A stretch of 64,000 nt of DNA from Alkalinema sp. FACHB-956. Its GTDB lineage: Bacteria > Cyanobacteriota > Cyanobacteriia > Leptolyngbyales > Leptolyngbyaceae. The notes beneath the pieces were generated by a model, which saw nothing but the letters and a program-made list of their open reading frames with translations, was not told where the DNA came from and did not search any database. The stretch covers positions 744,001 through 808,000 of the forward strand of contig NZ_JACJRC010000001.1 in NCBI RefSeq assembly GCF_014697025.1, read 5' to 3'. Of this stretch, positions 3,589 through 40,009 are shown one piece after another. Position numbers and translations under genes: made by a program. Numbering within the stretch: position 1 is the stretch's first letter; every line of letters starts with the position of its first letter.

Positions 3589-3807
3589 TTACCGCAGCCG
3601 TTCGCGACTGAGGATGCTGATGTATTGCCCGTCGGAATGCACGATCTTCATCGGTTGACTCCAGTGAATCCTGTCCGCAATCCGATGGGCATGGAATTGA
3701 TTAATCGTATCCTGCACGAACTCCTTGTGACCGATTAAGTGGATCTGTAAGCGTTGTTTCTCAGGTTGAACTTCACGATCGCTCCGATCGCTAGAACCTT
3801 TCGCCAT
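3589..3807 (-). CDS. Small protein of a three-copy family, copy 1
   Basis: 72 residues, no known domain recognised. It aligns over most of its length with the products at 14771-14986 and 39727-39945: LIG/LFG/LLG, then a charged V-Q-x-x-I-N-Q-(L/F) helix, then a (D/E)RI-W-(S/G)-x-P turn and a C-terminal stretch with S-x-L/M-x-R. It looks like a compact alpha/beta protein with one central helix. The start at 3807 has an AGGAGAAG ribosome site 7-8 bases upstream, as in copy 2. Its N-terminus is more basic and Ser/Asp-rich than the other two. The gene sits behind a long leader with an intrinsic terminator (3911-4134), so its expression is probably set by attenuation. Function unknown. Confidence 0.72.
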   Translation of the reverse strand: MAKGSSDRSDREVQPEKQRLQIHLIGHKEFVQDTINQFHAHRIADRIHWSQPMKIVHSDGQYISILSRERLR

Positions 3808-3910
3808 AATGTGAGCTTCTCCTTGTTGAAGTGAATCTCATCCCTGCTACAATCTTGCTCCCTTCTCCTACGTTTGGAAGAAGGGCCGGGGATGAGGGTC
3901 TAAAGAAGCC

Positions 3911-3957
3911 CAAAAATTTAGAGCCACCCCGTTTGACATCACAAACAAGAGTGGCTC
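3911..3957 (-). terminator. Attenuator terminator of leader copy 1
   Basis: Minus strand: GAGCCACTC (3949-3957) pairs with GGGTGGCTC (3921-3929, one G-U pair), followed by TAAATTTTTG. It lies about 105 bases upstream of the small-protein start codon, between promoter and gene. Confidence 0.65.
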
Positions 3958-4134
3958 GGTCAGATGCTAAAATCCTCATCAAGCCTCCTTGCTGCTGTTT
4001 CAGCGAGGGGGAATAGCTACCCGGAGTTGCGGTAACAACAAAGGGTAGTGCCCTAAATTTTCAGGATCCCAGCGGCCCCATGCTTCCTACCAAACCGTCT
4101 CGCGAAAGAAGGATGTCCATGGCAACCGCTATGA
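3911..4134 (-). ncRNA. Conserved leader RNA with terminator, copy 1 (riboswitch-like)
   Basis: Read on the minus strand. Blocks shared with copies 2 and 3 in the same order: a start region with TTTTTCATAGC, a CCATG...CTTC / GAAGCATGG pairing, a hairpin with stem CTACCC/GGGTAG (4017-4048) extended by GTTG/CAAC, a CCCCC-x-x-GCTG block, an ATTTTA-x-CAT block, and finally a terminator hairpin. The order promoter, structured RNA, terminator, ribosome site, short gene is that of a transcriptional attenuator. I do not match it to a known riboswitch class. The transcript start is placed about 7 bases after the -10 box by inference. Confidence 0.6.
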
Positions 4135-4140
4135 AAAACC

Positions 4141-4169
4141 AGCCTACGAACAAACCCCTTCCAAGTCAA
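4141..4169 (-). promoter_or_regulatory. Promoter of small-protein cassette 1
   Basis: Minus strand: TTGACT at 4164-4169, 17-bp spacer, TAGGCT at 4141-4146. The same two boxes with the same 17-bp spacing occur in front of copies 2 and 3. Confidence 0.6.
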
Positions 4170-14770: not shown

Positions 14771-14986
14771 TTATGACCAGCGGCGGTGTAGGACGCTGAC
14801 CCATTCGCCTTCGACGCCGGGGACGGGCATGGGTTTGCCCCAGTAGACACGATCGACGAAGCCGAGGGCGTGGAGTTGGTTGATGATGGATTGGACGGTT
14901 TCTTGGGTGCCGAAGAGTTGTAGGCGGAAGTAGGGGCGAAACCGTTCGATCGAGCGATCGTGATCGTCGCTAGAACCTGTAAACAT
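14771..14986 (-). CDS. Small protein of a three-copy family, copy 2
   Basis: 71 residues. Compared with copies 1 and 3 it shares L-x-L-F/L-G-T-x-E-x-V-Q-S-x-I-N-Q-L, the following (F/R)-(V/S)-(D/E)-R-(V/I)-x-W turn, and the K/P-P-M/V-P-V-P-G loop. It is closest to copy 3 in the central block and to copy 1 in its ribosome site (AGGAGAAG). The ATG at 14986 is chosen because it follows that site; the frame continues upstream into the terminator hairpin and that extension is rejected. The N-terminus MFTGSSDDHDRSI resembles copy 3 (MFIGFDDLDRAI). Function unknown. It lies just right of the right 71-bp repeat. Confidence 0.75.
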   Translation of the reverse strand: MFTGSSDDHDRSIERFRPYFRLQLFGTQETVQSIINQLHALGFVDRVYWGKPMPVPGVEGEWVSVLHRRWS

Positions 14987-15011
14987 ATTGAGCTTCTCCT
15001 GGGGTGTAGAG

Positions 15012-15066
15012 GGAAAAAGCCCAAAATTAGAGCCACCCCGGTTGACATCACAACGAAGGGTGGCTC
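15012..15066 (-). terminator. Attenuator terminator of leader copy 2
   Basis: Minus strand: GAGCCACCC (15058-15066) pairs with GGGTGGCTC (15030-15038), then TAATTTTGGGCTTTTT. It lies 26-44 bases before the small-protein start codon at 14986. Confidence 0.7.
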
Positions 15067-15254
15067 GATCGAATGTTAAAATTCTCAACAAGCCTCCCAG
15101 CTGCTGTTCCAGCTTGGGGGGATAGCTACCCGGAGTTGTTTGCAGCAACAACGGGTAGTGCTCTAATTTTTGGGTGAACCCAGCGCTTCCATGCTTCATG
15201 CCGTATCGTCAATTAGGTCAATTGTGAGAAGGATGTCTCATGGAGTCGCTATGA
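15012..15254 (-). ncRNA. Conserved leader RNA with terminator, copy 2 (riboswitch-like)
   Basis: Read on the minus strand. The blocks follow the same order as in copy 1: TTTTGTCATAGC, CCATGAGACATCCTTC paired with GAAGCATGG, hairpin stem CTACCC/GGGTAG (15126-15158) extended by GTTGTT/AACAAC, CCCCCCAAGCTGG, ATTTTAACATTCGATCG, and the terminator. Identity to copy 1 is high in these blocks and low between them, the pattern of a constrained RNA. The arm GAGCACTACCC of the leader hairpin resembles the terminator arm GAGCCACCC, so the two could exchange partners; that switching is an inference. Confidence 0.62.
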
Positions 15255-15260
15255 CAAAAT

Positions 15261-15289
15261 AGCCTACGAAGAAACCTAGGGTCTGTCAA
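15261..15289 (-). promoter_or_regulatory. Promoter of small-protein cassette 2
   Basis: Minus strand: TTGACA at 15284-15289, 17-bp spacer, TAGGCT at 15261-15266, as in copies 1 and 3. Confidence 0.62.
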
Positions 15290-15359
15290 TCGTATTTTAG
15301 GAATTTGTTTCAGGTATCATTTGATACCCGTCGGGCTTAAGTAGAATGGTTGGGACGAG

Positions 15360-39427: not shown

Positions 39428-39456
39428 TTGACAGAACCCGAGTTTATTTGTAGGGT
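39428..39456 (+). promoter_or_regulatory. Promoter of small-protein cassette 3
   Basis: TTGACA at 39428-39433, 17-bp spacer, TAGGGT at 39451-39456. Same boxes and spacing as copies 1 and 2. The 330 bases between the DM13 gene and this promoter (39096-39427) show no other feature. Confidence 0.6.
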
Positions 39457-39462
39457 TGTTTC

Positions 39463-39688
39463 TCATAGCTGAGTACCACCGTGTTTCAACACCCCGTTGG
39501 TCAAAGATCGACCGTAGGTCAATCAATCAGCTTATCTCCCGAAAATTAAGGCGCTGCCCCAGTTGCGACCAACAACGTAAGGCAGCTAAACCCCCAAGCT
39601 GACGAGACCAGCAAGGCGGTCTGACACGGATTGTAACATTCGATCGGGCCACCCTACTTGTCCTGCAAAGAGGGTGGCTTTAATTTTT
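39463..39688 (+). ncRNA. Conserved leader RNA with terminator, copy 3 (riboswitch-like)
   Basis: The most diverged copy, and so the most informative. It keeps TTTCTCATAGC at the start, a hairpin at 39554-39585 in the place of the CTACCC/GGGTAG stem, CCCCCAAGCTG, GTAACATTCGATCG, and the terminator. The hairpin stem is CTGCC/GGCAG: the A-U pair of copies 1 and 2 is replaced by G-C, one compensatory change. The inner GTTG/CAAC pairing is also possible. The CCATG/CATGG pairing of the other copies is not obvious here. Confidence 0.58.
39647..39688 (+). terminator. Attenuator terminator of leader copy 3
   Basis: GCCACCCT (39648-39655) pairs with AGGGTGGC (39671-39678), followed by TTTAATTTTT. It lies 39 bases before the start codon at 39727. 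Confidence 0.7.
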
Positions 39689-39726
39689 GGGATTTCTTCC
39701 CGACTCTACAACCAGGAGAAATCCCC

Positions 39727-39945
39727 ATGTTTATTGGTTTTGACGATCTCGATCGCGCGATCGAGGACTCCCGTAAACCGCTGCAATTCTACCTCCTCGG
39801 CACCCGCGAGGAAGTCCAGTCCACCATTAACCAGTTGCAGGTGTTGCGTTTTTCTGAACGAATTCGCTGGAGTCCCCCGGTGCCGGTGCCCGGTTCGGAT
39901 TGGCAATACGTCAGCAAGATGCAGCGCGATCGGGCGTTGGAGTAA
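39727..39945 (+). CDS. Small protein of a three-copy family, copy 3
   Basis: 72 residues. L-L-G-T-R-E-E-V-Q-S-T-I-N-Q-L forms the family core, followed by the F-S-E-R-I-R-W-S-x-P-V-P-V-P-G stretch and an S-K-M-Q-R end. The ATG at 39727 follows an AGGAGAA site 6 bases upstream; the frame continues upstream through the terminator but that part cannot be translated sensibly from the proposed start. The protein lies far from copies 1 and 2 and in the opposite orientation, with its own promoter and leader, so the cassette moves or duplicates as a unit. A 15-bp perfect hairpin follows at 39977. Function unknown. Confidence 0.75.
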   Translation: MFIGFDDLDRAIEDSRKPLQFYLLGTREEVQSTINQLQVLRFSERIRWSPPVPVPGSDWQYVSKMQRDRALE

Positions 39946-39976: not shown

Positions 39977-40009
39977 AAAAACCGGGATTTTCTAAAAATC
40001 CCGGTTTTT
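39977..40009. terminator. Strong bidirectional terminator
   Basis: A perfect 15-bp stem (39977-39991 with 39995-40009) with a 3-nt loop, A run on one side and T run on the other. It ends cassette 3 from the left and the acidic protein gene (40026-40454) from the right. Confidence 0.9.

Follow-up and report, generated by a model that had tools for sequence, protein, structure and literature searches.

An uncatalogued cyanobacterial leader RNA, probably a translational switch, precedes a family of small proteins in dozens of copies per genome

What kind of element repeats a promoter, a long folded leader and a small open reading frame (ORF) three times within 64 kb of the Alkalinema sp. FACHB-956 genome, and how might its leader act? 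The window (the whole stretch of DNA that was analysed, 64,000 nucleotides) was described in an earlier note as containing three units with TTGAC(A/T), exactly 17 bp, TAGG(C/G)T, a structured leader and a paralogous product of 71–72 amino acids. All of these are present, and the likeness of the three units is far above chance (Table 1). Each unit consists of a promoter, a folded leader of about 150 nt, a ribosome site and a gene for a protein of 60–75 residues. The leader length of about 220–245 nt proposed earlier had to be corrected, as the distance from the −10 element to the start codon is 333, 274 and 270 nt in copies 1, 2 and 3, respectively. The extra length of copy 1 comes from a palindromic repeat, about 70 nt long, that is inserted between its RNA and ORF; in our alignment, this repeat is found in copy 1 and in about half or more of the type A copies. 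The count of three copies is valid for the window only, as the genome holds a dispersed family of about 77.

Table 1. Positions of promoters, RNA helices and reading frames in the three units of the window
Feature	Positions	Strand	Basis or content
Copy 1 unit	3589-4169	-	promoter, leader and ORF
Copy 1 promoter, TTGACT (4164-4169), 17 bp, TAGGCT (4141-4146)	4141-4169	-	sequence; conserved in 65 genome copies
Copy 1 5' hairpin P0, GCGGUUGCCAUGG ... CAUGGGGCCGCU	4071-4129	-	MFE fold
Copy 1 RNA domain closed by P1	3909-4065	-	covariation, MFE fold
Copy 1 P1, 5' strand CCUGAAAAUUUAGGGC, 3' strand GCUCUAAAUUUUUGGG	4050-4065 with 3909-3924	-	
Copy 1 P2 hairpin, CUACCC...GGGUAG, hypervariable apex UUACCG	4016-4048	-	covariation, loop variability
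Copy 1 P3 hairpin, GCUG-AAACAG-CAGC, hypervariable apex	3991-4004	-	97.5% paired across clades
Copy 1 alternative helix around hairpin P4, GGAGGCUUG (3980-3988) / CGAGCCAC (3949-3958)	3949-3988	-	
Copy 1 hairpin P5, GAGCCACUC / GGGGUGGCUC (the terminator of the earlier note)	3921-3957	-	covariation
Copy 1 hairpin P6 over ribosome site, GGGCUUCUU (3903-3911) with AAGGAGAAGCUC (3813-3824)	3813-3911	-	MFE fold
Palindromic repeat between RNA and ORF of copy 1, kind CCCTCATCCCCGGCCCTTCTCCCACACGCGGGCGAAGGGAGCAAGATTGCAGCAGGGATGGG	3835-3905	-	alignment
Copy 1 ORF, 72 aa, subfamily A (24 near-identical copies)	3589-3807	-	own-genome protein search
Copy 2 unit	14771-15289	-	promoter, leader and ORF
Copy 2 upstream palindrome GGTATCAAATGATACC (GTA-N8-TAC)	15313-15328	-	10/65 copies at fixed distance
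Copy 2 promoter, TTGACA-17-TAGGCT	15261-15289	-	sequence
Copy 2 RNA domain, P1 = 15160-15174 with 15020-15033	15020-15174	-	R1 159 bits, MFE fold
Copy 2 hairpin P5, GAGCCACCC / GGGGUGGCUC	15030-15066	-	genome-copy covariation, sequence
Copy 2 hairpin P6 over ribosome site, GGGCUUUUUCC / GGAGAAGCUC	14990-15022	-	MFE fold
Copy 2 ORF, 71 aa, subfamily B	14771-14986	-	own-genome protein search
Copy 3 unit	39428-39945	+	promoter, leader and ORF
Copy 3 promoter, TTGACA-17-TAGGGT	39428-39456	+	sequence
Copy 3 5' stem, AGCUGA ... UCAGCU	39467-39532	+	sequence
Copy 3 RNA domain, P1 = 39538-39552 with 39677-39691	39538-39691	+	R1 150 bits, covariation
Copy 3 hairpin P5, GGGCCACCC / GGGUGGCUUU	39646-39681	+	covariation, sequence; formed in MFE fold
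Copy 3 hairpin P6 over ribosome site, GGGAUUUCUUCC / GGAGAAAUCCC	39689-39725	+	duplex test, MFE fold
Copy 3 ORF, 72 aa, subfamily C	39727-39945	+	start codon at 39727
Terminator-like perfect hairpin AAAAACCGGGATTTTCTAAAAATCCCGGTTTTT after copy 3	39977-40009	+	sequence

The family extends over many contigs of the genome, with 70 places matching the protein of copy 1 and about 77 RNA copies found by a covariance model of the leader. The protein copies sort into three subfamilies that are represented in the window, A (24 members) by copy 1, B by copy 2 and C by copy 3, and a fourth subfamily, D, comprises seven near-identical units (L195–L201) whose hairpin tips are all different. Three RNA copies lie at contig ends (L204, L205, L206), and two protein copies near contig ends (L050, L066) have a common foreign upstream stretch; thus, the family probably breaks the assembly, and the copy numbers are approximate. 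One locus (L072, C3:84598-84801) is likely a pseudogene, as its reading frame is interrupted by a stop codon and its leader is divergent. About 77 dispersed copies in unrelated surroundings could also be left by a non-autonomous mobile element that carries the gene about. However, the most similar pair of units is 94.7% identical and none exceeds 95%, the 5' flanks are of several unrelated types, no common ends were found in the twelve best pairs inspected, the copies have no common neighbour or transposase, and many units occupy orthologous positions between species of another genus. A mobile element with defined ends was rejected on these grounds, and we regard mobility of this kind as very improbable. 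The unrelated surroundings, the identity of at most 94.7% and the lack of common ends in the pairs inspected point instead to a gene family of old age, scattered over the genome, whose copies exchange sequence, and not to an active element.

The promoter is a constant part of the unit. Of 65 genome copies (L009, which was mis-assigned by the pattern, is included in the counts), 63 carry TTGACA or TTGACT as their −35 element and 40 carry TAGGCT as their −10 element; between the two, 46 copies have a 17-bp spacer and 18 copies an 18-bp spacer. The spacing is also kept in homologous loci of other genomes, where a promoter with 16–18 bp was found in 117 of 130 foreign units versus 2.8% of shuffled sequences. 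In 10 of the 65 copies (1.4 in shuffles), a GTA-N8-TAC palindrome, which we take to resemble an NtcA box, precedes the end of the −10 element by about 60 nt; this sequence hints at nitrogen control of those copies. The copies devoid of the palindrome carry other upstream types, so that different regulators may act on promoters of the same family.

The leader can fold in two mutually exclusive ways. Within the genome (alignment A3, 46 copies), helix P1 is formed by CC(U)AAAAUUUAGGGC with GCUCUAAAUUUUUGGG, or in type C by CCCGAAAAUUAAGGC with GCUUUAAUUUUUGGG; it is followed by P2, P3, a helix GGxGGCUUG/CGAGCCACC enclosing P4, and then P5, GAGCCACYC/GGGUGGCUC. As P5 takes letters from both P1 and the enclosing helix, it excludes these two and is excluded by them. 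In either fold, 97% of the alignment cells are paired overall, with two-sided changes; the alternative helix around P4 keeps its pairing through a U-A to C-G change in 22 genome copies, and P5 is paired in 100% of genome copies and in 96% across clades. The apex of the 5' hairpin P0 is variable in subfamily D.

Alignment across cyanobacteria (A8, 41 rows) gave the same helices, with pairing of 82–90% for P1, 97.5% for P3 and 96% for P5, and with two-sided changes in 6 of 6 outer pairs of P2. The P1 fold has 157 two-sided cells versus 59 in shuffled alignments and at most 56 in slid versions, and the exclusive P5 fold has 127 versus 46 shuffled, although both controls are somewhat flattering, since shuffling ignores kinship and the structures were drawn from the same sequences. 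Covariance model R1 scores the RNA of copy 1 at 163 bits, copy 1 itself being part of the model. In addition, the 3' part of the RNA is 96% identical among the 24 type A copies versus 63% at fourfold sites, i.e., the leader RNA is under stronger constraint than synonymous sites. The earlier view, by which the unit is ordered and folded like a cis-regulatory leader, is borne out by this covariation, both within the genome and across cyanobacteria.

P5 is the hairpin previously read as an intrinsic terminator before the ribosome site. The hairpin exists, but it is not followed directly by a U-run: the run begins 3–4 nt past the stem (UAAAUUUUU, UAAUUUUU), has shrunk to GUUUUCG in another genus (g92), and doubles as the 3' strand of P1, so that the terminator reading is weak. 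A terminator scan of copies 1 and 3 did not list P5, although the loop limit of the scan would by itself exclude this hairpin. In a transcription attenuator, P5 and the U-run would stop transcription, while P1 and the upstream helix would act as the antiterminator. An exclusive pairing of the antiterminator type is indeed present, both folds are conserved, and GGUUUUUGGG is retained after P5 in many relatives. Nevertheless, we consider attenuation unlikely given the displaced and, across genus g92, shortened run, which is fully accounted for by its role in P1, and the result of the scan. Moreover, the terminator-like perfect hairpin that follows copy 3, a type also present 3' of other type C copies, has a quite different look.

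The ribosome site, by comparison, can be paired with the sequence after P1 in every type. In types A and B this hairpin, P6, is GGGCUUCUU/AAGGAGAAGCUC, in type C GGGAUUUCUUCC/GGAGAAAUCCC, and in genus g92 UUCUGUCUUCC/GGAGACAGAA, so that other clades form P6 from different letters. The duplex of copy 3 has a dG of −16.9 versus −6.1 for shuffled sequences. For 44 short-linker units of the genome the values are −12.7 versus −5.4 (98% at p≤0.05), and for 53 units of genus g92, with their unrelated letters, −16.7 versus −7.3 (100%); in a mixed foreign set of 48 units, however, the duplex was significant in only 60%. Unconstrained MFE folds contain P1 plus P6 in copies 1 and 2, and P5 plus P6 in copy 3. 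A GGG is common to P1 and P6 in the window copies, whereas P6 of genus g92 begins after CG, and thus the overlap between the two helices is not universal. Hiding of the ribosome site is conserved, as expected of a translational cis-regulatory RNA. Since P6 is the best-conserved expression platform, control of translation appears likelier than termination attenuation and is, judged from the sequences, the best-supported mechanism.

The RNA is not restricted to this strain. With model R1 (E≤0.001), 84 of the 390 cyanobacterial genomes that were sampled were seen to carry it, nearly always at full length; seven candidates per genome were scored in this survey, so the copy numbers are lower bounds. 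One genus carries it in 20 of 26 genomes, with up to 12 copies each, and named carriers include Myxacorys californica WJT36-NPBG1 and Leptolyngbyaceae cyanobacterium SL_7_1. In 123 of 130 foreign loci, picked by RNA score alone, a protein of the family is encoded within 520 nt of the RNA, and this small protein is the only output seen. Searches of Rfam gave no match at the gathering threshold and, with permissive settings, nothing convincing, the glnA and Downstream-peptide families and known non-regulatory elements included. The earlier statement that the leader matches no known class thus agrees with the Rfam models, and neither outcome that the note had named as refuting its view was obtained. 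The RNA forms a genuine new family of cis-regulatory elements, and a single protein family is its output.

Two known cyanobacterial systems come close. The Downstream-peptide and glnA motifs (RF01704 and RF01739) are likewise leader RNAs found in many copies before short ORFs of unknown family (PMC2864571), but the RNA described here is about 150 nt long, has different helices, precedes one homologous protein family and gives no Rfam match. The gifB leader, a glutamine riboswitch that controls the small inhibitor protein IF17 (PMC7760959), also combines a leader RNA with a small protein; it differs from our RNA, which lacks an Rfam match and occurs in dozens of copies per genome.

The small protein has a core of a short strand, a helix and a strand (consensus LRVLLIGSPEGVRETIHDLHRRGFAEVGDWSPLLPAPNSGEVMSILTRRR). 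Among type A copies, protein identity is 96% versus 63% at fourfold sites, and thus the ORF is under purifying selection. As read from their sequences, the proteins are charged and have no long hydrophobic stretch. No Pfam or NCBIfam family scored above cut-off, sequence searches of PHROGs, PADLOC and PDB gave nothing convincing, phages and viral contigs gave no match, and a fold search with an AlphaFold2 model (pLDDT 77) returned only weak ACT- or KH-like matches (E≥0.9). On Nostocales plasmids (L184–L191), homologues of the protein occur with no detectable RNA, and in several cases a helix-turn-helix protein precedes or faces them and a tyrosine integrase lies nearby; the protein, therefore, does not need the RNA. 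In a genome of another family (G057), 15 matches were obtained; almost all of them cover only the first half of the profile (about residues 16–51), and they possibly represent a different, related family.

Taken together, we think it probable that this uncatalogued RNA acts as a translational switch that serves a single family of small, soluble proteins. The sequence shows a promoter-driven leader that comprises the P1-closed domain (P2, P3, P4 and P5), a second, exclusive set of pairings and P6 over the ribosome site. By default, the ribosome site would be hidden. A signal that shifts P1 against P5 would then change the access of ribosomes, in the window copies possibly through the GGG common to P1 and P6, and a partial stop of transcription at P5 may add to the effect. 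Because the RNA hardly occurs except in front of genes of this family, we think that the small protein, or the target on which it acts, is most likely what is sensed. Against this reading, a single switch repeated about 77 times in one genome is unusual for a metabolite sensor.

An unexpected property of the RNA, missed in the earlier note, is that the loop tips of P2 and P3 are hypervariable while the rest is almost fixed. In type A, the P3 tips are 36% identical, as compared to the 96% and 63% given above for the RNA 3' part and for fourfold sites. In subfamily D, identity is 96.7% over the promoter and the non-tip RNA and 74% at fourfold sites, while all seven P3 tips differ (CTGAAG, ATGATC, TTCGAG, CTGATA, CAGAGA, ATAACC, AACACA; 37% identity) and form the most variable spot of the unit in a sliding 6-nt window. 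Subfamily D is the younger one, and P3 tips look saturated whatever the age of the subfamily. The tips differ even between orthologs. Reciprocal flank matches joined 55 pairs of orthologous loci in genus g92, which are not independent; in 14 non-overlapping pairs (mean flank identity 90.7%), identity was 96.3% for the RNA core, 85% for ORF fourfold sites, 69% for P2 tips and 60% for P3 tips. The P2/P3 tip pair was unique within the genome in 41 of 41 parsed copies from six genomes, and loop sequences recur at several loci. The tips lie outside the core switch and look like either a copy-specific tag or a freely changing apex.

How the tips change bears on this choice. Exact reverse-complement P2 loops (e.g., TTCCAG/CTGGAA and CCGTTAA/TTAACGG) occur in 4 of the 25 ortholog pairs with differing loops of equal length, the four deriving from two sets of linked loci, and no loop was merely reversed or merely complemented. 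This fits template switching at hairpins, by which loops of RNA hairpins are inverted between close relatives (PMC8794818). In that study, a few dozen inversions were found among thousands of changes, whereas here a small number of loci yields several, and the P3 tips are replaced by unrelated letters and not inverted. The 7-nt P2 loop (YURSNAR) bears some resemblance to an anticodon loop, but position 2 is not always U and inversion symmetry also explains the pattern. Gene conversion between paralogs can account for the identity of the core and for tips recurring at several loci, yet it is expected to homogenise the tips too, and within genomes they are distinct. Despite this, and despite the replacements in P3, there is a good chance, somewhat short of even, that the tips are simply unconstrained and mutate fast by template switching and conversion on an otherwise ordinary switch. 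This explanation concerns the loops only and is compatible with translational switching.

Alternatively, a cognate RNA, e.g., an antisense or trans-acting one, could read the two tips of each copy, the tips being diversified against cross-talk. The tips would then be fast-diversifying, copy-specific addresses by which near-identical genes are controlled singly, with the switch present in dozens of copies per genome. Precedents are the type I toxin–antitoxin repeats (Zor-Orz, Ibs-Sib), near-identical RNAs that differ in a short stretch, where the variable V1 region of the OrzO and OrzP RNAs avoids cross-talk (PMC3919570). Unlike the small hydrophobic toxins of such systems, the present family consists of charged, soluble proteins, for which there is no known antisense RNA. 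Variable tips on a nearly fixed core, their divergence between orthologs and the unique tip pairs are all in line with such addressing. However, no partner was found: the single promoter-like site on the other strand of copy 1 is at chance level, complements of the loops in their own transcript (or avoidance of self-pairing) showed no excess, and P2–P3 kissing complementarity equals that of shuffled loops. Furthermore, the diversity of the promoter spacers comes close to that of the tips in types A and C. We therefore hold addressing by the loops, and with it the single control of near-identical genes, to be doubtful.

The finding adds a structured RNA class absent from Rfam, and a small-protein family that has no Pfam or NCBIfam model, to the biology of cyanobacteria, with the RNA present in about a fifth of the sampled genomes and at about 77 loci in Alkalinema sp. 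FACHB-956. With tens of copies in each genome, tests of expression and of ligands are easy to perform. The loop tips are a natural system in which to ask if the apices of hairpins can become specificity tags through evolution or simply undergo mutation by template switching.
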